Assembly (NCBI GenBank): GCA_001829495.1
Contig: MIBJ01000062.1
Location: 1 to 64,000 of the forward strand
Length of the DNA stretch: 64,000 nucleotides
Origin: Spirochaetes bacterium RBG_16_49_21
Lineage (GTDB): Bacteria > Spirochaetota > UBA4802 > UBA5550
Reading direction: 5' to 3'
The notes beneath the pieces were generated by a model that worked only from the letters and a program-made list of their open reading frames with translations, made no database searches and was not told where the DNA came from. Below are positions 5,562-16,323 of the stretch, piece after piece (positions within the stretch are counted from its first letter, which is position 1; every line of letters starts with the position of its first letter). The position numbers and the translations under genes are program-made.

Positions 5562-7655
5562 GTGATTTTAAATAGTATTATCCACTTTATCATGAATATT
5601 CCCAAAAACCTGATCAGCAGGCTATCACGCTATTTTGACAATTCGGCTTCATCCTCTGAAACAAACCGCGAATTGCCCCGCGGAATTGACGACGAGCTCT
5701 TGCGCATCTCTGAATCAAGCAGCGCTCTGCAGCATCAGGGGAGCGCCGAGAGGTACCGTTTCCTCGCAGAGAATATATTCGATGTGGTCTGGGTGATAGA
5801 GATGGACCTGAAATTTCAGTATATCAGCCCTTCCTGCAAGACCTTGCTCGGCTACACTGCCGAAGAAGCCATGAATATGAAAATAGAGGATATTCTCACT
5901 CGTCCATCCTTTGATGTGGCGATGATTTTGCTGTTCGAGGAGCTGAAGCGTGAGGTGGAGGGAAACGCGGATCCGGCGCGGACCATATATCAGGATCTGG
6001 AATTCAACCGCAAGGACGGCGGAACGGTCTGGGCTGAATCGCGGGTCATGTTCATCAGGGAGAAGGGGAGGCCCGTGGGGCTTTTGGGAGTGACCAGGGA
6101 TAATACCGCCCGGCGGGATGCCGAGGAGGGTCTCCGGAGGAGCGAGGAGAGATACCGCACAATTCTGGAAACAATCGAGGACGGCTACTATGAGGTCGAT
6201 CTGTCCGGCAGGCACCTGTCTTTTAATTCCGCTTTTTGCAGAATGATGGGCTATGAGCCGGAGGAGCTGAAGGGGATGAGCTACAAGACCTTGGTGCCCG
6301 ATGATGCGCGCAAGGGGCTTTTTTCTAAATTTCATGAAGTATATATGAAGGGTACCCCGTTGAGGGTGGTGGCACACCGATACATACGAAAGGACGGTAC
6401 CCCCGGCTATGGAGAGGTTTCGGTATCGCTCAGATACGATCCGCAGGGCAACAAGATCGGCTTCTGCGGCATTCTCCGCGATATCACTGAGAAAAAAAAG
6501 ATGGAAGAGGCGCTCAAGAAGAGCGAACAGAAATGGCGGAGCCTTTACAGCAGCATGCCGGGAGGAAGCTATGTGATCGACTCGGACCGCACCATATCCG
6601 ACGCCAACGCCATCACCTGCTCCGTCACCGGATACCGGTATGAAGAGCTGGTTGGGCAGAAGTGCAGCATCCTATGCAGTGAAGATACCGACGGATGCTC
6701 ATGCCTTCTGTTCGATCGCCGGAGCGGTAAAAGCGACAACAGGGAGAGCGTCATAAAGACGAAGGACGGGAGGAGGGTCCCGATCATACTAAGCGCCCAG
6801 AGAATCAAGGTTTCCGAGGGGGATATCGTCTTAAACAATTTCCATGATATAACCAAGATGAAGGAGATCGAGGAGGCTCTGCGAAAAAGCGAGGAGGCCC
6901 TGCGCGCGCGGAACCGGGTGATCGAAAAGGACCTTCTCACTGCGCAGCTCATTCAAAAGTCGCTTTTATCCGTGAATATTCCGGAGCTCGGCTGGGTGAA
7001 GGCCGGCTACCGCTATCTCCCCCTGGACGCGGTCGGCGGCGATTATTTCTCATTGACACCCCTGCGGGAAGGCGGCCTGGGCGTGTTTATCGGCGATGTC
7101 TCAAGCCACGGTGTGACCGCGGCCCTGTTCCTTTCGCTGGTAAAAGCGACTTCGGATCGCATATGCCGCGGTTATGCGCTCAAGCCGGCCCAGTTTATCA
7201 CCACGCTGAATCAGGAGCTCTACGGCAACATGCCCCTCAGCTTCCTGACTGCCGTATACGGCGTTTTCGGATTAAACGGCGACGGCAGGACGAATTTCAT
7301 CTTCAGCTCAGGCGGGCATCCGTATCCGATATTGTTCAGGGCTGATTCCGGAAAAGCGGATTTCGTGAACTGCAAGGGAACGCTCATCGGCATGTTCAGT
7401 GATCTTGAGTTCCAGGAAAAGAATATCATTTTGGAAAAGGGGGACCGGGTATTCCTGTATACCGACGGCATACCGGAAACGATGAATGAGAACAGGGATA
7501 TGATCGGGTTTGACAGCCTCCCTGAATTGGTGAGGCAAGCCAACGACAGCTCGCTAGGGGCCACCCTGGATAATATTATGGAGGAGATCAACCGGTTTAA
7601 GGGGAATGCCGCCCTGAGCGATGACATAGTCCTTCTTGGATTCGAGGTGGTGTGA
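5562..7655 (+). CDS. Triple-PAS sensor PP2C-type phosphatase (RsbU/SpoIIE family)
   Basis: A 697-residue soluble sensor. Three PAS domains start near residues 63 (RYRFLAENIFDVVWV), 198 (RYRTILETIEDGYYEV) and 323 (KWRSLYSSMPGGSYVI), linked by short coiled coils. The C-terminal PP2C/SpoIIE domain (about 470-697) keeps its metal-binding acids: GGDYFS, GDVSSHG, YTDGIPE and DDIVLL. Such proteins dephosphorylate a serine-phosphorylated anti-anti-sigma factor. The third PAS carries a cysteine cluster (CSILC...CSC, about 367-380). No sigma-factor partner genes lie nearby. Start is GTG at 5562; ATG at 5592 is an alternative, and neither has a strong ribosome site. Confidence 0.9.
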   Translation: MILNSIIHFIMNIPKNLISRLSRYFDNSASSSETNRELPRGIDDELLRISESSSALQHQGSAERYRFLAENIFDVVWVIEMDLKFQYISPSCKTLLGYTAEEAMNMKIEDILTRPSFDVAMILLFEELKREVEGNADPARTIYQDLEFNRKDGGTVWAESRVMFIREKGRPVGLLGVTRDNTARRDAEEGLRRSEERYRTILETIEDGYYEVDLSGRHLSFNSAFCRMMGYEPEELKGMSYKTLVPDDARKGLFSKFHEVYMKGTPLRVVAHRYIRKDGTPGYGEVSVSLRYDPQGNKIGFCGILRDITEKKKMEEALKKSEQKWRSLYSSMPGGSYVIDSDRTISDANAITCSVTGYRYEELVGQKCSILCSEDTDGCSCLLFDRRSGKSDNRESVIKTKDGRRVPIILSAQRIKVSEGDIVLNNFHDITKMKEIEEALRKSEEALRARNRVIEKDLLTAQLIQKSLLSVNIPELGWVKAGYRYLPLDAVGGDYFSLTPLREGGLGVFIGDVSSHGVTAALFLSLVKATSDRICRGYALKPAQFITTLNQELYGNMPLSFLTAVYGVFGLNGDGRTNFIFSSGGHPYPILFRADSGKADFVNCKGTLIGMFSDLEFQEKNIILEKGDRVFLYTDGIPETMNENRDMIGFDSLPELVRQANDSSLGATLDNIMEEINRFKGNAALSDDIVLLGFEVV

Positions 7656-7663
7656 GAGGGACT

Positions 7664-7857
7664 GTTTAAAAAGTCTGGCACGCCCTCCTAAATCCCTCTC
7701 GACCTCACCCGCGCGCTGCGCACCCTCTCCCATTAATCTCGGAAGAAAGGAGAGGGTTTCCGAAACAGTAAGCCTCATCCTTAGACTCCCCCTCTCCTTT
7801 TTTCACTTCTTAATGGGAGAGGGGGCCGGGGGGTGAGGTCGAGAGGGGTTTAGGGGC
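7664..7857. repeat. Palindromic intergenic element (family C)
   Basis: Outer arms CCTCCTAAATCCCTCTCGACCTCACCC (from 7684) and the inverted GGGTGAGGTCGAGAGGGGTTTAGGGG enclose inner arms CCCTCTCCCATTAA / TTAATGGGAGAGGG. The left edge CTGTTTAAAAAGTC recurs at the edge of the element near 17100. Related copies lie at 17094-17260, 28687-28911 and 47079-47384. Confidence 0.7.
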
Positions 7858-7915
7858 ATGAAAGAATGAAATGTGGGTAATAGTTAACTGTATGATAAGG
7901 AGCCAGCAGGATAGT

Positions 7916-8179
7916 ATGAAGCGCTGTATTATAATGATGCTCGCCTTCGTGCTCACCATCTCCTGCGCAAAGAGCCCTTCCCCCACTCAGGGTTCCCGGG
8001 ACCGGGAGCGCGAATCTGAAAGCGGCAGGAATGTCACGCCTCGGCCGGGGGAGTCAGATAAAGAAGGCGGTCCGCAAAAGAGGGATGTTAGATCCGTAAA
8101 AACTGGTTCCCGGGAAAAGCATGGACTTCCGGACGGGGTTCTGGAAAAGCCGCGGGTGGATCTCCCGGAGGCTCGATGA
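7916..8179 (+). CDS. Small putative lipoprotein, function unknown
   Basis: An 87-residue ORF from ATG 7916. Residues 1-17 form a lipoprotein signal (MKRCIIMMLAFVLTISC, lipobox LTISC), followed by a hydrophilic, Arg/Glu/Ser/Pro-rich low-complexity tail. I chose 7916 over an upstream in-frame ATG at 7871 because it gives the clean signal peptide and follows AGGAG. Its last 126 bases overlap the 3' end of the repeat protein on the opposite strand, so one of the two C-termini may be partly spurious. No family recognised. Confidence 0.5.
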   Translation: MKRCIIMMLAFVLTISCAKSPSPTQGSRDRERESESGRNVTPRPGESDKEGGPQKRDVRSVKTGSREKHGLPDGVLEKPRVDLPEAR

Positions 8180-9727
8180 ATGATGCAGTCTCTCCAATCC
8201 CTTGAGGCGCAGGCCGCAGTTTCTAATCCCGAGTTCCGATCCCGCCTTTTTATATAAGGATTCCGCCTCCCGGTACAGGTCTGCGGCTTTCCGGTACCGT
8301 CTCTCATGAAATGCGATATCACCGATGCTGAAGATGCAGTTTGCCTCGCCCACGACCGATCCGGCTTTCGAGTACCGGTCACGGGCCGCCAAATACTGTT
8401 TCCGCGCCCTGCTGAGATCGTATCTTCTCAGGAGGATATCAGCCTGCATGGAGAGGCAGTTCGCTTCACCGAGGGTTGCCTGTGCGCTTTTGTAAAGGGC
8501 GAGAGCGCTTGAATACAGGCGCTCGGCAGCGCTCGTATCGTTTTTTTGTATGCAGATATCCGCCCGACGATACATGCAGTTGGCGCTTCCGATCGGGGAA
8601 AGAGCCGCACCGTACAGGGAACCTGCCTCCCGGAAGAGCCGGTCGGACGCATCAAAGCGGGAGTAATTAAAGGCGACTGAGGCGAGGCTGTAGACCTGAT
8701 TGGCGGTGGAAAGGCTGGCCCCGGCCTTTTTGTACAGGATAAGGGCGTCAGCCGTCAACGTGTCCCCTTTCTTGAAATTTTTTTTCTTGTATTCTAAGGG
8801 GATGAGCCCTTTAATACAACCGGCCTCTCCCTGGCTCGAGTTGATCTTCCGGTACAGCCCCATGGCTTTCCGGTAATTTCGCTCGGCGGTTTTTTCATTT
8901 TTTTGATGATAGGCGAGCTCTCCGAGCATCCTGATGCAGTTAGCCTGACCCAGAAGGGATCCGGCACGGGAATACAGATCAAGGGCTGCGGTATACAGCT
9001 CATGAGACTTCACCCGGTCAGAAGTATAAAATGCGATATCCCCGAGACGTTTCAGGCAGTTCGCGACCCCAAGCGTGCTGCCGAGTTTTCTATACCGCGA
9101 AAGCGCCTCAGCGTAGTGATTGTGCGCAACCGTGAAATCCGATTTCAGAACGGCGATGTCTCCGAAGCGCTTGAAACAGTTGGCTTCGCCGAACTCCGAT
9201 CCGGCCTTCCGGTAAAGCGGGAGAGCGGTTTGATATCGATTTTCCGCGGCCCGGTAATCCCGTTCCCGGTAAAAGACATCCCCGATCCGGTTGATGCAGC
9301 GCGCCTGCCAGAGAACGTTTCCATCGCTCCGGGATAATGCGAGCGCGCCGGAGTATGCTTTTTCCGCCATGCGGTAATTGTATTTGTAATCGAGCCATAT
9401 ATCCCCGCTCGTGTACCGTGCGGTTATGATATTCGTTGTTAAACCCTTCCGGCGTGCAATCTCTTCCAGAGCCTCCGCCATGCGCAGTCCGGTGTCTGTG
9501 GTATAGTTGCTTTCCAGTGCATAGGCGTATCGTGCGGCAGCGTAAAGCCAGTCCGCATTTATGATCCGGAGATTTTTTTCATATATTTTTTTTTGTTCTT
9601 GGAGGGTTCTTTTTTGAATAATGCTTTTTATAAGGTCTGCATCCGGCTTGTCCCATGCGGCAGTTTCGGCAGACAGGGTCGGAAGGCACAGGCTTATAAT
9701 GAATAACAGCAGAACCGCACTTCTCAT
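8054..9727 (-). CDS. Exported protein with ten 40-residue TPR-like repeats
   Basis: Start chosen at ATG 9727 (557 residues); a GTG at 9739 directly follows the kinase stop. Residues 1-21 form a signal peptide (MRSAVLLLFIISLCLPTLSA). About residues 105-505 hold ten tandem 40-residue helical repeats of the type GDIAF-x-YRAAENRY-x-AL-x-LYRKAGS-x-GEANC, a TPR variant with near-regular length. A cysteine recurs at the same place (ANC) in nine of the ten. It probably forms a periplasmic superhelical scaffold. It lies at the 3' end of the giant kinase gene, so they likely form one operon. The final 40 residues overlap the opposite-strand lipoprotein gene. Confidence 0.85.
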   Translation of the reverse strand: MRSAVLLLFIISLCLPTLSAETAAWDKPDADLIKSIIQKRTLQEQKKIYEKNLRIINADWLYAAARYAYALESNYTTDTGLRMAEALEEIARRKGLTTNIITARYTSGDIWLDYKYNYRMAEKAYSGALALSRSDGNVLWQARCINRIGDVFYRERDYRAAENRYQTALPLYRKAGSEFGEANCFKRFGDIAVLKSDFTVAHNHYAEALSRYRKLGSTLGVANCLKRLGDIAFYTSDRVKSHELYTAALDLYSRAGSLLGQANCIRMLGELAYHQKNEKTAERNYRKAMGLYRKINSSQGEAGCIKGLIPLEYKKKNFKKGDTLTADALILYKKAGASLSTANQVYSLASVAFNYSRFDASDRLFREAGSLYGAALSPIGSANCMYRRADICIQKNDTSAAERLYSSALALYKSAQATLGEANCLSMQADILLRRYDLSRARKQYLAARDRYSKAGSVVGEANCIFSIGDIAFHERRYRKAADLYREAESLYKKAGSELGIRNCGLRLKGLERLHHSSSLREIHPRLFQNPVRKSMLFPGTSFYGSNIPLLRTAFFI

Positions 9728-9739
9728 CACCGGCGTCAC

Positions 9740-12700
9740 CTACCGCAAAACACAGTTGATCGCGGCTTTAAGGTCTTCCATCCGGTACGGTTTCGCCACT
9801 ACGCCGCAAAATCCATAATCAGCGTAATTGGCCATAACCGGATCATTGGAATATCCGCTGGACACGATTGCCCGGACATCCGGATTGATCTCTTTAAGCC
9901 GGACGATCGTCTCCTTGCCTCCCATCTTCCCCGGGATGGTGAGGTCCATGATGATAAGATCATAGGGACGTCCCTCCTGAACGGATTTCATATACAGCTC
10001 TACGGCCATCTCTCCATGGGTGGCAAAATCGGCTGAAATACCCATATGGGAAAGCATGTTTCCGGCTACCCGCAGAACCACCTCGTCGTCGTCCATGATG
10101 AGAACCCTTACTGCTGGAAGAACATTTTTTTGCTCCATCGTCTCCTCCGTGCACACGCATTCTCTCGATGAAGGCAGGTATACGAAAAAGCTCGTCCCTT
10201 TTCCCAACACCGATTCGAAAGCGATATGTCCCTCATGCCGGTTGATTATTGAGTATGATACGGTCAGCCCGAGACCGCTTCCGTTCTGCTTTGAGGTAAA
10301 ATAGGGGTCAAAAATATATTTTTGATTTTCCGGCGGTATGCCGGTGCCGTGGTCCGTTATTTCTATCTTTATATAATTCCCGGGCTTAAGCGGATGCCGG
10401 GATCTGCTGTCGATCATCTCGTTCTTCGCCGCGACCTCGATGACGCCTCCTTCCTGCATGGCCTGCATGGCGTTGATGACGAGATTATGGATGACCTGGG
10501 TGATTTGGCCCTCATCAATCTCCGCATTCCAGAGGTCGTTCTGAATGGTGTAGATGCATACGATATTTGATCCGCTCAGGGCAAAATCAATTGTCTGCCG
10601 CAGGAGCTTTTTAATGGAGGTTGTTTTTTTGATCGGCGCGCCGCCCCGGGAGAAGGTCAAAAGCTGCTGCGTCAGGTCCTTTGCCCGCATGGACGCGTTT
10701 TCAGCCTCATCCAGAATCGTAAATATCTCGCTGGTTATGGGGAGATTAAGCTTCGCCAGGGAGATGTTTCCGATTATGGCGGTGAGTAAATTGTTGAAGT
10801 CATGCGCAATTCCGCCCGCGAATACGCCCAGTGATTCGATCTTCGTCTGCTTGAGCAGGTCCTCTTCCATTTTCTTCTTAGTGGTGATATCGGTGAAGAG
10901 GCCGAAGCTTCCCTTGAAGTTCCCGCTTGAATCGAACATCGGGCGGGGCGATACCATGGTCGAGATGATCCTGCCGTTCCTGCTCACCAGTTCGATCTCG
11001 TACGGCACATGCTCGCCCCTTCTTCTTTTCATGAGCTGCTCTTCCAAAATGGCTTTGCTCGGCTCGCTCGCGAAGTCTTCCAGATAGCGGCCCAGGACTT
11101 CCTCGCGTTCATATCCGAGTATCTCGCAGAATCGGGTGTTGATGAAGCCGATTCTGCCTCTATCGTCCACCACGCAGATACCCTCGTTCATCGACTCAAC
11201 CACCAGGCGGTGACGATCCTCGCTTTCCCGCAGCGCGGATTCGACCTCCCGGTGCTGGGCTATTTCCCGCTTGAGCTTGTCATAGAGCTGCGCAATCTCC
11301 AGTGATATTGCGGCCTGGGATGCAATGAGTTCCAGAATCCCGATGTGATCCGCGGTAAAGGCCCCGGCAACGGCGCGGTTTTCCAGATACAGGATGCCGA
11401 TAAGCTGGGTGTGCCTGATAACCGGCAGACAGAGCACGGACAGGGGTTTGTTATCGTCAAGGTATCCGTCAAGGGGGATATTCTCTTCCAGCCGGGCGTC
11501 ATTAATGACCAGGTATTTTTTCAGATTCATCACATAGTTGATGACCGGCAGCAGGATGTCTTTTTTGGCGGCAAGAGGAACGCTCCTGATGACGGTCTGT
11601 ATGTCGTCCTCTGCCCTGGTTTCGGCGATCACGGTGCCATTGGTTCCTTCCATTGATATAAAAAGCCCTCTGTCCGCACCCGCATTTTCAATGGCGATTT
11701 CCATGAGGCTTTTCAGAAGCTCATCCATGATGATCTCGCTTGAAATCGCCTGAAGGGAGTTCACGATGGTGGTATAATTCAGGGACCGCTGGATGACGCC
11801 CGCTTCGGCCGGCCTGGCTTCGTGGAGGAGTACCGAGTATCTCTGCTCCAAATCCCGGAGCTTTGCATCCGCTCCCCATTCGCGGTAGCAGTTTCTCGCC
11901 TGTATGAGGTGGGCTTTTGCCGATACGGTATTATCTTTTTGGATAAAAAATTCAGTGGCCCGCTCGCAGATGATCGCCTCATGGTTGATGTAGCCGTTTT
12001 TTCGCGAATGCTGTATCGCCTGTGCGTAGTATTTCATGGCTTCCTGGTCATTGCCGGCGATCCGCGATTGTTCAGCCCTGAGCAGGAGATACTGATGAAG
12101 AAAGTTCTCCGGACAATTGTCGGACCATTTTTTGAACAAGCCCACGCTTTTTTTCAGAATCGCGGCTTTACGTTTTTTTTCCGTGCGGGAAAGATGATCA
12201 TACCATGCGGATATTGACAAGGATAAGTAAAAGTAGTATTCCGTAATGTGTACCAGGCCGAACAGAGACTTGTCTATATAGGCATGAATCGAGGAGGCCA
12301 GCAGCAGCGCTTTCTCATAGTTCAGGAACATATACGCGGTCACCATTTCGGTAAGATTATAAAGGCACCGGAAGTAGATGTTGTTTTCCGCCGGCATCTT
12401 CATCCTGATTTCATCAAGGCCGTCCGATTCGCGTTCCGATTTATCCGGCGCCGTTCCCTTGAGCCTCCGGAGCATCAGGTAAAACAGTTTCATGAGAATG
12501 AGGAAATGAACCGACCGCGTCAACTTGACAAAGTTGATATGCGTTTCATAGATTAACATCAAGGAGTTGATTTCCTTGCCCTTTCTTATGGAGTGGAGAA
12601 AAATATTTGATATGGCGACGTTCGTAAAATGGAAATCGCCCGATGTCATTCCCGACTGGAACGCCGTCGAAAAATATTCAATATAATCATGAAAGGGACT

Positions 12701-15667
12701 GTTCCAGAATTTTATCGCGGCAAAGAGGCTGTAGATATTGGCTTCCAGCTCGATGTCATTGAATTTTTCCTTGAGGTCGATCCCCAGCTTGCCGAATTTA
12801 TAGGCATTCTTATGATCGCCGAACCACATGCCCAGCATGGCCCCATAAATGATGTATGTGTAGGGCGCATATTTTGAATTCCCCTTTTTCAGGGTTATTT
12901 CGATCAGATTCAATATTATGAGAAAGAGGAGCCTGAGGTGCGACCCTCTGTCCGAGTAATACACCGGTACGGTGATCTTCACCAGAAGGTTCATGAGCTG
13001 GAGGAGATCGGGGTCTTCTATGTTAGGGAGGTTGAAGAGGTCTTCGATCTTTTTTTTCTTAAGCCTTCTTCTGACCCGTATGAATTTAAGCAGCACGAGG
13101 GGAAGGCTGGGAACCGCCGGTGAATTCAATTTATAGATTTTACACGCTTCAAGGCCGATCTGTATGGCCTCGTCTATCCTGTTCTGATGCGTCCGCAGAA
13201 CGACAAGAAGGCTGTATATTTTTACCCGGTCGTTATTGTTTTTTGCCCTGGCCAGCAGATCGGTAAAGCGTTCCCCGTCTTTTTGGAGAGTTCCGGCGAG
13301 ATATTCCGATTCGGCTAATTCAAAAAAGATTGAAAAAGCGAGGCCATAGTCCGCCTCCCATACGTTTTCCGGGAGGAGGGAAATCGCGAATTTCAGATAG
13401 TTGACAACGGAGACGTAGGCTGCGGAAAACTTGGCTTTTTTCGCAGCCAGAAGGTTGAGCTTGACTATGGAGTTCTTTTCTTCCTGATCGGTGATGATCT
13501 CCCGGCACTGATTGAAATGATCAACAATGACGAATATTTTTTCATAGAGATCCCCCTTGGACGCCTGCTGGAGAAGGTAGTTGCCGCTGCGGCGGTGGAG
13601 GTTTTTTTGTTCCTCTTCCGGCGTGATGGAGAGAATCGAGTCATGTATCCGGTCGTGGGCGAAGGAGTATCCCGGCGGCGAATGCACCAGGAGTTCATTC
13701 CGGACCGATTCGTTTAAATTAATGATGATGTCCATTATCGGCATGCCGCTGATTTCGGCCAGAGCCTCCGGATTGAACCGGCTGCCGATGATCGCCGCAA
13801 CTTTGAGTATTTTCAGGGTTTCATCCTTCAAGCGCGTGATCCGCTCGATGGTCAGCTCAATAATGTTATCCGTGGCCTGCATGTTCCGTATCAGGCTTTG
13901 ATCCCAGCGCCAGCCGGACGCGGAGGTATAAACAAGAAGCTCATCCTCATACAGCCGCTTGAGGAACTGTTTTATGAAAAAGGGATTCCCCCCCGTTTTT
14001 TGATAAATGATCTCGGCAAGGCTCGCGCAGGTATCGGCGGTGCAATTCAAGGTGTCGATGAGCATGTCTATCAGATCCGCGAGCGACATCGGGTGTAATG
14101 CTATTTCCGTTATTTCAACATTCCTGTTCCTGATGTCCTTAAGCCAGTCGGTGAGAACATGCGAATGGGCATTAGCGTCGTCGCGGAAGGTGGCGATGAA
14201 GAGGATATAGGAAAGTTCGGGATCGGTAATCAAGCTCTGCAACAGATTCAGGCTCCCCGCATCCGCCCACTCAATATCTTCCAGAATGATCGTAAGGGGA
14301 TGCTCCTTACGGGCGAAGAGTTTTATGAAATTCTTCAGCACCAGGATGAATCTATTCTGTGATGCTTCCGGATCCATGTACTGTATCTCCGGCTGGCTCC
14401 CGATGAGAATCTCCGCTTCCGGTATGATATCGATGATGATTCTCCCGTTTTGGCCGACGGCCTCTGAAAGACCCGCCTTCCAGATCTGAACCCTTTGCTC
14501 GCTTTCGGACAAGAGCTGTTTTATGAGTCCCTGGAATGCCTGGATAACCGCGCTGTAAGGTGTGTCGCGGTTCAAGCGGTGAAACTTGCCCGCTGCATAG
14601 TATCCGCGGTGCCGGGTGACCGGTTTATGAAGTTCATGGATGAGCGTGGATTTTCCGATTCCCGCATAACCGGTCACCAGTAAAAAACGGGTCTTCCCCC
14701 CGCATATCTGCTCGAACTCGGCCCATAGAGTTTCGATTTCTTTTTTTTTACCGTATATTTTTTCCGGGATGTTGAACCGGTCCTGGATATCGTTTCTTCC
14801 CAGAAAGAACGGCTCGATCGTTCCGGTGTTGTTTAACTGGGTCAGGCATTCCTCAAGGTCGGAAAGTATACCGTGTGCGCTCTGATATCTGTTTTGGGGA
14901 TTTTTTGAAATCAGCTTCATGACGATGTCGGATATCATCCGGGGCGTATTGCTGTTGATTTCCATAGGAGGCTGCGGCTGCCGGGCGATATGCCCGTGGA
15001 TTATTTCCATGGGATCCGTGTACGGAAACGCGGGTACGCCGGTCAATACCTCATACAAGGTCATGCCCAGGGAGTAGAAATCGGAGCGGTAATCGATATT
15101 TTTGCTCGTGCGGCCTGTCTGCTCCGGCGAAATATAGGGAAGATTGTTCTGTACAAAATCGGGACCATATATCTCTTCGATTTTATATGCGGCGACCGCA
15201 TTGAATCCGGTATCCTTGATCTTGAGATTGCGCATTTCAGGATTGACGAATATTGTATTTGGATTAATATCCGAATGGATAATTTCGTTTCGGTGCAGCT
15301 CTTTCAGGCCGCTCGTTATCTGGATGGCGATATCGAGAAATTCCCTGAAGGGTATTTTTTTCTGTACGAGGTACTGCTTGAGCGGAATTCCGGGAGGTCT
15401 TTCAATAAAGAAGATCATGCCGTTCCACTGCTCATCCCGGATTTTTTCGCAGCCGTATATCTTCGCTACGTGGTCGGATTCCATAAGCTGGGACTGCTCG
15501 TATTCGTAGGTGAGCTGAATGATGTGCGAGGGAGTAAGCTCATCGAAGGGGAAATATTTAATAATAACCGGCTTGCCGGTGGTGGACTGTATTCCGGAAT
15601 AAGTGGTGCTGCGCGATCCCCGGTGAATTTCTTTAATGTTGCTGTACTCGTTGATATATATCAACAC
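9740..15667 (-). CDS. Giant hybrid Ser/Thr kinase - AAA ATPase - GAF - PAS - histidine kinase - receiver
   Basis: A 1975-residue cytoplasmic signalling protein. In order: Ser/Thr kinase (1-280; Lys37 in VIIK, catalytic HSDINPNT near 131, then KDTGF in place of DFG); AAA ATPase (310-560; P-loop GYAGIGKST near 334, Walker B IILEDIEWAD near 466); long helical TPR-like region (680-1280); GAF (about 1300-1450); PAS (about 1480-1590); HisKA with GGIAHDFNNLL near 1619; HATPase with N box near 1729, DHGTGIP and GSGLGL; and a receiver (1858-1975) with DDD, MDLTIPG near 1909 and KPY. The architecture is that of the cyanobacterial/leptospiral trifunctional kinases. Start is GTG 15667 or the adjacent TTG, behind GGAG. 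No dedicated output gene is adjacent except the repeat protein. Confidence 0.93.
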   Translation of the reverse strand: MLIYINEYSNIKEIHRGSRSTTYSGIQSTTGKPVIIKYFPFDELTPSHIIQLTYEYEQSQLMESDHVAKIYGCEKIRDEQWNGMIFFIERPPGIPLKQYLVQKKIPFREFLDIAIQITSGLKELHRNEIIHSDINPNTIFVNPEMRNLKIKDTGFNAVAAYKIEEIYGPDFVQNNLPYISPEQTGRTSKNIDYRSDFYSLGMTLYEVLTGVPAFPYTDPMEIIHGHIARQPQPPMEINSNTPRMISDIVMKLISKNPQNRYQSAHGILSDLEECLTQLNNTGTIEPFFLGRNDIQDRFNIPEKIYGKKKEIETLWAEFEQICGGKTRFLLVTGYAGIGKSTLIHELHKPVTRHRGYYAAGKFHRLNRDTPYSAVIQAFQGLIKQLLSESEQRVQIWKAGLSEAVGQNGRIIIDIIPEAEILIGSQPEIQYMDPEASQNRFILVLKNFIKLFARKEHPLTIILEDIEWADAGSLNLLQSLITDPELSYILFIATFRDDANAHSHVLTDWLKDIRNRNVEITEIALHPMSLADLIDMLIDTLNCTADTCASLAEIIYQKTGGNPFFIKQFLKRLYEDELLVYTSASGWRWDQSLIRNMQATDNIIELTIERITRLKDETLKILKVAAIIGSRFNPEALAEISGMPIMDIIINLNESVRNELLVHSPPGYSFAHDRIHDSILSITPEEEQKNLHRRSGNYLLQQASKGDLYEKIFVIVDHFNQCREIITDQEEKNSIVKLNLLAAKKAKFSAAYVSVVNYLKFAISLLPENVWEADYGLAFSIFFELAESEYLAGTLQKDGERFTDLLARAKNNNDRVKIYSLLVVLRTHQNRIDEAIQIGLEACKIYKLNSPAVPSLPLVLLKFIRVRRRLKKKKIEDLFNLPNIEDPDLLQLMNLLVKITVPVYYSDRGSHLRLLFLIILNLIEITLKKGNSKYAPYTYIIYGAMLGMWFGDHKNAYKFGKLGIDLKEKFNDIELEANIYSLFAAIKFWNSPFHDYIEYFSTAFQSGMTSGDFHFTNVAISNIFLHSIRKGKEINSLMLIYETHINFVKLTRSVHFLILMKLFYLMLRRLKGTAPDKSERESDGLDEIRMKMPAENNIYFRCLYNLTEMVTAYMFLNYEKALLLASSIHAYIDKSLFGLVHITEYYFYLSLSISAWYDHLSRTEKKRKAAILKKSVGLFKKWSDNCPENFLHQYLLLRAEQSRIAGNDQEAMKYYAQAIQHSRKNGYINHEAIICERATEFFIQKDNTVSAKAHLIQARNCYREWGADAKLRDLEQRYSVLLHEARPAEAGVIQRSLNYTTIVNSLQAISSEIIMDELLKSLMEIAIENAGADRGLFISMEGTNGTVIAETRAEDDIQTVIRSVPLAAKKDILLPVINYVMNLKKYLVINDARLEENIPLDGYLDDNKPLSVLCLPVIRHTQLIGILYLENRAVAGAFTADHIGILELIASQAAISLEIAQLYDKLKREIAQHREVESALRESEDRHRLVVESMNEGICVVDDRGRIGFINTRFCEILGYEREEVLGRYLEDFASEPSKAILEEQLMKRRRGEHVPYEIELVSRNGRIISTMVSPRPMFDSSGNFKGSFGLFTDITTKKKMEEDLLKQTKIESLGVFAGGIAHDFNNLLTAIIGNISLAKLNLPITSEIFTILDEAENASMRAKDLTQQLLTFSRGGAPIKKTTSIKKLLRQTIDFALSGSNIVCIYTIQNDLWNAEIDEGQITQVIHNLVINAMQAMQEGGVIEVAAKNEMIDSRSRHPLKPGNYIKIEITDHGTGIPPENQKYIFDPYFTSKQNGSGLGLTVSYSIINRHEGHIAFESVLGKGTSFFVYLPSSRECVCTEETMEQKNVLPAVRVLIMDDDEVVLRVAGNMLSHMGISADFATHGEMAVELYMKSVQEGRPYDLIIMDLTIPGKMGGKETIVRLKEINPDVRAIVSSGYSNDPVMANYADYGFCGVVAKPYRMEDLKAAINCVLR

Positions 15668-15825
15668 TCTGCTCCGCAGGCGGTTAAATCCATTTATTGA
15701 AACGCATTGGTCATACAGAATTTATCGTAAAACGTCAACATATTATTTGATAGCTGGATTTTTATCTTGATTTATTTATCCGGAGACATTACACAAACAC
15801 TATTTCTTTAAAAGGCGGTCATCAC

Positions 15826-16323
15826 ATGAGAATTTGGCATTTGATTTTGTCCGGTTTGATCTTTTTTTCCGGATGCGGCAGACTTATCAAGGTACCCGAG
15901 CAGAAACGGGCTATCACGCAGGTATACCCGATACAGCTTTCGAAAGATGAGATATATGACCGGGCGCTTGAATGGTGCGCGAAAAGATATATATCCGCCG
16001 ATAACGCCATTGTTGTGAGGGACAAAGAAAAGGGCAAAATCATCTGCAGGGGAACTGCTCAGTATTCAGAGTATTTTAATTTTCTGGTAGACCGGCCGTT
16101 CGGGTATTCCCTGACGATTGAGGTTAAAGACAATAAATACCGGGTGAGCTTCGATAGCTTTATCGTTTATTACAGCGAGCGCGATCTCAAATCTGGTCCC
16201 GCAGAATATGAATTTGAAATCAGCAAGATAAAAAGGATTCTCGCTAAAGTAGCGGAGAGCCTGCGCGATTATATATCCAGCGGCGTTTCAGAAAAGGAGA
16301 AAAAAACAGAGGAGGAATGGTAA
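15826..16323 (+). CDS. DUF4468-like lipoprotein
   Basis: A 165-residue protein with a lipoprotein signal (LIFFSGC at 11-17). The body matches the pattern I know from DUF4468 proteins, with a TBP-like fold: DEIYDRALEWCAKRY, then VRDKEKGKIICRGTA, and a long beta-rich part ending in an amphipathic helix. These are surface or periplasmic proteins of unknown function, common in Bacteroidota and spirochaetes. It is preceded by AAAGGCGG and stands alone. The C-terminal tail is rich in Glu and Lys. Confidence 0.65.
   Translation: MRIWHLILSGLIFFSGCGRLIKVPEQKRAITQVYPIQLSKDEIYDRALEWCAKRYISADNAIVVRDKEKGKIICRGTAQYSEYFNFLVDRPFGYSLTIEVKDNKYRVSFDSFIVYYSERDLKSGPAEYEFEISKIKRILAKVAESLRDYISSGVSEKEKKTEEEW

Follow-up and report, generated by a model that had tools for sequence, protein, structure and literature searches.

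Two long genes stand one behind the other on the reverse strand of the window, a 64,000-nucleotide stretch of DNA from an uncultured spirochaete: a dual Ser/Thr-like kinase / hybrid histidine kinase of 1975 aa (9740..15667) and an exported-looking TPR protein (8054..9739). The question raised by this locus is whether the two products form one signalling unit or are neighbours with separate partners. The preliminary description, whose gene coordinates and strands were correct on recheck, treated them as a functional pair. The reading favoured here, and considered probable, is that two separate things lie on one strand: an ordinary dual kinase of the HstK/Chk1 type, and an exported TPR superhelix whose gene is partnered with a DUF4468 gene.

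The window belongs to a contig of 100,670 bases in a source genome of 3.80 Mb and 83 contigs (G000). Genome G001 belongs to the same genus, and the nearest named relative in the collection, the MAG 'Spirochaetes bacterium RBG_13_51_14' (L093), shows 62% identity over the whole kinase. Duplicate genomes occur in the locus sets, represented by the same contigs (L091=G005, L092=G007, L093=G001, L110=G007).

Domain architecture of the kinase

The kinase starts at GTG 15667 or TTG 15664, and its orthologues start at the position matching TTG 15664. Pfam gives the domain order Pkinase-AAA_16-(TPR-like)-GAF-PAS-HisKA-HATPase-REC, recovering every domain named in the preliminary description (Pkinase, AAA_16, GAF, PAS, HisKA, HATPase_c and REC). 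All encoded on the reverse strand, the Pkinase domain (PF00069, 96.5 bits) occupies residues 8-263 (14879..15646), followed by an AAA_16 (STAND-type) ATPase at residues 304-491 (14195..14758) with the P-loop GYAGIGKS present; HstK contains an AAA_16 part as well. That description did not mention a TPR-like middle (residues 1122-1232), which PF25503 matches with 27 bits, the cut-off itself being 27 bits. At least one GAF domain falls between the two kinase domains (residues 1315-1456, 11300..11725; PF01590, 46.3 bits), followed by a PAS domain (residues 1495-1595, 10883..11185; Pfam), HisKA (residues 1614-1677, 10637..10828), HATPase_c (residues 1718-1833, 10169..10516; Pfam and orthologue alignment), and a receiver domain, REC (residues 1855-1971, 9755..10105). 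The H-box GGIAHDFNNLL of HisKA and Asp1908 of the receiver are invariant in 4/4 orthologues, and by orthologue alignment and dN conservation is highest at the end of the protein that holds the histidine kinase and receiver. Among the NCBIfam matches listed, no model other than one for a PAS domain exceeded its cut-off in the kinase or the TPR protein. The kinase is presumably cytosolic: a STAND-like ATPase switch and a helical, TPR-like middle are joined to sensor domains (GAF and PAS) and to a hybrid histidine kinase, and its output may pass from His1622 to Asp1908 and on to a phosphotransfer protein or regulator.

Kinases of this kind have been in print since 2001, when HstK of Anabaena was described as a dual kinase with an N-terminal Ser/Thr kinase, a C-terminal His kinase and a GAF domain between them (PMC2176072); such dual kinases (cbSTKIII) have also been surveyed (PMC1262709). 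As far as these two accounts go, the window kinase shares with HstK and cbSTKIII the N-terminal Ser/Thr kinase domain, the intervening GAF domain and the C-terminal HisKA and HATPase, and differs from them in an added C-terminal receiver and a degenerate Ser/Thr catalytic loop. Candida Chk1 is reported with the order S_TKc-AAA_16-GAF-HisK-REC, and Mak2/Mak3 of fission yeast with a similar one (PMC9069115, PMC5383687). The window kinase has this same order, so its architecture is not new; it is likened to these proteins by domain order and by a Pfam TPR_CHK1 match in the middle region. Unlike fungal Chk1 as described, it is bacterial, smaller (1975 vs 2471 aa) and equipped with a PAS domain. 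On these published accounts, the window kinase is a dual kinase of the HstK / fungal Chk1 type. The preliminary description knew of no named system; this is true of the kinase-TPR pairing but not of the kinase, whose architecture is well known (PMC2176072, PMC1262709, PMC9069115). A literature search for 'trifunctional' found no papers, and neither did a pseudokinase search in which four terms were combined.

Catalytic residues of the Ser/Thr domain

Lys37, HSD at residues 131-133 and DTG at residues 152-154 of the Ser/Thr domain are as first described. In active kinases the position D+5 is a metal-binding Asn, which is replaced by Thr138 in the catalytic loop HSDINPNT (residues 131-138; 15254..15277, reverse strand). 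The statement that the key Asp residues are kept is accurate for the window, where both are present, but it missed the loss of the D+5 Asn and does not extend to the G007 orthologue, where Asp133 is lost. Across four kinase orthologues the D+5 Asn becomes T, S, S and T, and the same replacement is seen in an alignment with PknB that is gap-free at the catalytic loop; the catalytic Asp133 becomes Ser in one of the four (G007).

These changes bear on the alternative that the Ser/Thr domain is fully active and the protein a bifunctional enzyme like the textbook dual kinases. That view accords with the conservation of the domain and with the retention of Lys37, Asp152 (the DFG Asp) and the APE-type Glu182 in 4/4 orthologues, whereas the loop Asn, present in 77/93 aligned kinase relatives, is replaced in all four orthologues, and the catalytic Asp, present in 69/93, is missing in G007. 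Full activity is consequently regarded as doubtful, though with an appreciable chance of being right. The 93 relatives are 101 matches minus 8 whose alignment failed to span the Ser/Thr domain, and the subtraction of 2 near-identical rows leaves 91 non-redundant related giant kinases, in 60 of which Lys, HRD-Asp, loop Asn and DFG-Asp are all present. The locus sample was selected with a pair of peptide patterns; since Lys37 is part of one of them, the Lys37 counts are biased upward. At least one of the four catalytic residues is missing in 31/91 related giant kinases, L061 and L094 among them.

Because the loop Asn is gone in 4/4 orthologues and the catalytic Asp in one, the Ser/Thr domain is probably a pseudokinase or a weakly active regulatory domain; what has been lost is one metal ligand, which does not by itself prove inactivity. 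The dN of the domain (0.17-0.25) is no faster than that of AAA or GAF, dN being used alone because dS was saturated or undefined in many cells, and a rate not above these domains indicates that the domain is retained for something. In the window lineage it would act as a regulatory module whose catalysis is probably lost or weakened. Ser/Thr ends of giant dual kinases often appear catalytically degenerate, and their default annotation as active is therefore unwarranted.

Further along the window lies a gene encoding three PAS domains and a SpoIIE phosphatase (5562-7655, forward strand), present in this neighbourhood in G005, G004 and G007 as well; its product is a possible partner of Ser/Thr signalling. 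Nested inverted repeats (7687-7854; complementarity 96% between arms of 24 nt and 81% between inner arms of 37 nt) sit between this SpoIIE-type phosphatase gene and a lipoprotein-like ORF, and resemble a small non-coding repeat element.

The TPR protein and its genomic partners

The TPR protein, with its likely start at ATG 9727, has by eye a signal-peptide-like N-terminus, MRSAVLLLFIISLCLPTLSA (9668..9727, reverse strand), from which we infer export. Ten 40-residue TPRs span residues 115-514 (8198..9397, reverse strand) by periodicity and model. The ten repeats claimed in the preliminary description are real, with a period of 40 and a self-identity of 0.26 against a maximum of 0.113 in 200 shuffles, and Pfam adds a TPR_12 match at 91 bits. 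The AlphaFold model (mean pLDDT 84.9) shows a confident superhelix over about residues 31-520, whose closest folds are the TPRs of LGN/Pins; LGN TPRs are 40-residue repeats. With LGN/Pins and the AfsR C-terminus the protein shares a fold class, and TPR profile matches extend over long stretches; it differs from LGN/Pins in looking exported, and at 13-16% identity over the fold matches the likeness is one of fold alone. The number of repeats differs among close relatives in the alignment. The non-homologous C-terminal tail (8057..8176, reverse strand) is antisense to the ORF 7871-8179(+), and the last ~40 residues have no counterpart in homologues and a pLDDT <50.

The 3' end of the TPR gene (8054-8179) thus overlaps an antisense, lipoprotein-like ORF at 7871-8179(+), which has longer versions in two relatives, while the TPR protein ends earlier in homologues. 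Their sequences suggest that the two ends were joined by deletion or stop loss.

Twenty family genomes were searched for the TPR family at E up to 1e-20, and it was found in 8. A DUF4468 protein (>=40% identity) occurs in exactly those 8, with a 31% match in one further genome, and locus maps place the TPR and DUF4468 genes as divergent neighbours in 8/8; in G003 the contig breaks off within the TPR gene, and this case rests on the N-terminal part of the TPR protein. In the window the DUF4468 gene (15826..16323, forward strand; N-terminus lipoprotein-like by eye) diverges from the kinase across an intergenic region at 15668..15825 (no strand). The kinase lies between TPR and DUF4468 in G000 (the window), G001, G005 and G007, where it is adjacent to and co-oriented with the TPR gene in 4/4, across two genera; no kinase lies between them in G002, G003, G004 and G015. 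By synteny, in these 8 genomes, the TPR protein belongs with DUF4468.

An rpoB tree places the kinase-less G003,(G002,G004) in one clade (support 100/97), with G007, G000, G001 and G005 diverging earlier, one after another; the node that unites G005 with this clade has 93/91. Since the kinase-less clade is nested among kinase-bearing lineages, one loss is the simplest account, and the tree suggests one clean loss of the kinase in the G003,(G002,G004) lineage with the TPR gene kept. A tblastn search of the TPR-DUF4468 spacers of G002, G003 and G004 found no kinase remnants (best E 0.28, all matches short); G015, where the TPR and DUF4468 genes overlap, stood outside this test, and its kinase was either lost or never present. 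A functional kinase-TPR tie lost in one clade would give a similar pattern, and the evidence from synteny comes from no more than 8 genomes.

The alternative in which the kinase and the exported TPR protein share an operon and act as a single signalling unit, the kinase being a hub in the cytoplasm and the TPR protein a periplasmic scaffold, draws on the gap of 0-12 nt in the window and on the adjacent, co-oriented genes in 4/4 genomes with the kinase. Against it, the TPR gene is retained without the kinase in 4/8 genomes, the two genes are separated by 194-923 nt in 3/4 kinase-bearing genomes and by an antisense gene in 2/4, and the TPR repeat number differs among close relatives. Pfam, the one resource applied to this point, shows no periplasmic domain in the kinase, so that contact with the TPR protein would require a further protein. 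The probability of this alternative is low, and the claim of a functional pair fails on the persistence of the TPR gene in the kinase-less half of the family genomes that carry it.

The neighbourhoods of related kinases were surveyed more widely. The kinase alignment search yielded 80 loci, and the neighbour survey took in 100 loci holding 106 related kinase ORFs, of which 72 had >=3 kb downstream. A gene of this TPR family within 3 kb downstream on the same strand was found in 3/72, all three being orthologues; weak opposite-strand matches in L102 and L170 and a weak match inside the kinase ORF of L066 were left uncounted. The expectation that the TPR gene always follows such a kinase therefore holds for all three orthologues but not for paralogues, which lack it. 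The source genome carries seven paralogues of the kinase against one TPR gene. Used as a query against the contigs of the collection, the TPR protein gave 43 pattern matches, of which 0 were confirmed. With no kinase in 4/8 of the genomes that carry the TPR gene, the proposed kinase-TPR pair is not a conserved two-gene system.

The kinase-TPR junction and its transcription

The kinase stop TAG lies at 9742-9740, and the candidate TPR starts are GTG 9739, GTG 9730 and ATG 9727, giving gaps of 0, 9 or 12 nt; ATG 9727 opens the hydrophobic leader. A start within 15 bases of the kinase stop was thus correctly described. Kinase and TPR gene stand 923, 564 and 194 nt apart in the three other genomes with the kinase, and the gap is near-zero only in the window, which, in an 83-contig draft genome, raises the alternative of an assembly artefact. 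Both ORFs are intact, however, the junction is free of Ns, and gene order and orientation are the same as in G001, G005 and G007, so that an artefact is scarcely credible.

An antisense ORF of 70-79 codons with MKLE.CKKC lies inside the kinase-TPR gap of G001 and G005, and its gene also occurs in G002 and G004, there flanked by DUF4468 on one side and TPR on the other. Directly upstream of the TPR gene, G001, G005, G002, G004 and G003 have in common an island with ATG..T.GACAA, present with <=1 mismatch in 5/5 tested; the mismatches sum to 1, and 300 shuffles gave no sum below 9, but this is a post hoc score for a motif chosen after viewing the sequences. Mismatches number 1 in G015, 2 in G000 (the window) and 3 in G007, with shuffles averaging 2.6 per sequence, and near the window TPR start the element was not found at better than these 2 mismatches. 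To judge from this upstream element, most genomes seem to provide the TPR gene with a promoter of its own, the window being an exception. In the divergent intergenic region, reading by eye shows a TTGACG box ahead of the kinase, followed 17 nt later by TATGAC; TTGACG is aligned in G000, G001 and G005, with the spacing to the second box judged by eye. A promoter/terminator scan returned 6 promoter-like sites against 9.0 expected and was thus uninformative.

A small CxxC protein family of ~70 aa without a Pfam match (e.g. L042:8164-8376(-)) has matches, many of them weak, in 17/20 genomes of the family when E values up to 0.1 are admitted; close copies adjoin the TPR gene in four genomes.

Co-transcription, as first proposed, is plausible in the window, with its gap of 0-12 nt and no TPR-promoter element near the start, but not elsewhere, given the long gaps in the other three genomes and the antisense gene between in two. 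Since the window lineage is without the spacer that carries the promoter-like element, the transcript of the kinase may there extend into the TPR gene.

One further reading goes beyond this, and is given a very low probability: the exported TPR protein and the DUF4468 lipoprotein would constitute an envelope stress module, and in some members of the spirochaete family its state would be sensed by a dual kinase through a pseudokinase end. If it were true, the spacer deletion in the window lineage would have put the TPR gene in the kinase operon and made a feedback target of a neighbour.

The favoured reading of two separate things on one strand removes a tempting, unsupported 'new two-gene signalling system' and puts a testable picture in its place. 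The exported TPR superhelix has as its constant genomic partner the divergently transcribed, lipoprotein-like DUF4468 gene; the kinase lies between the two in some spirochaetes and would have been cleanly lost once, with the TPR gene remaining. The conserved unit would then be TPR with DUF4468, and the kinase an optional passenger.
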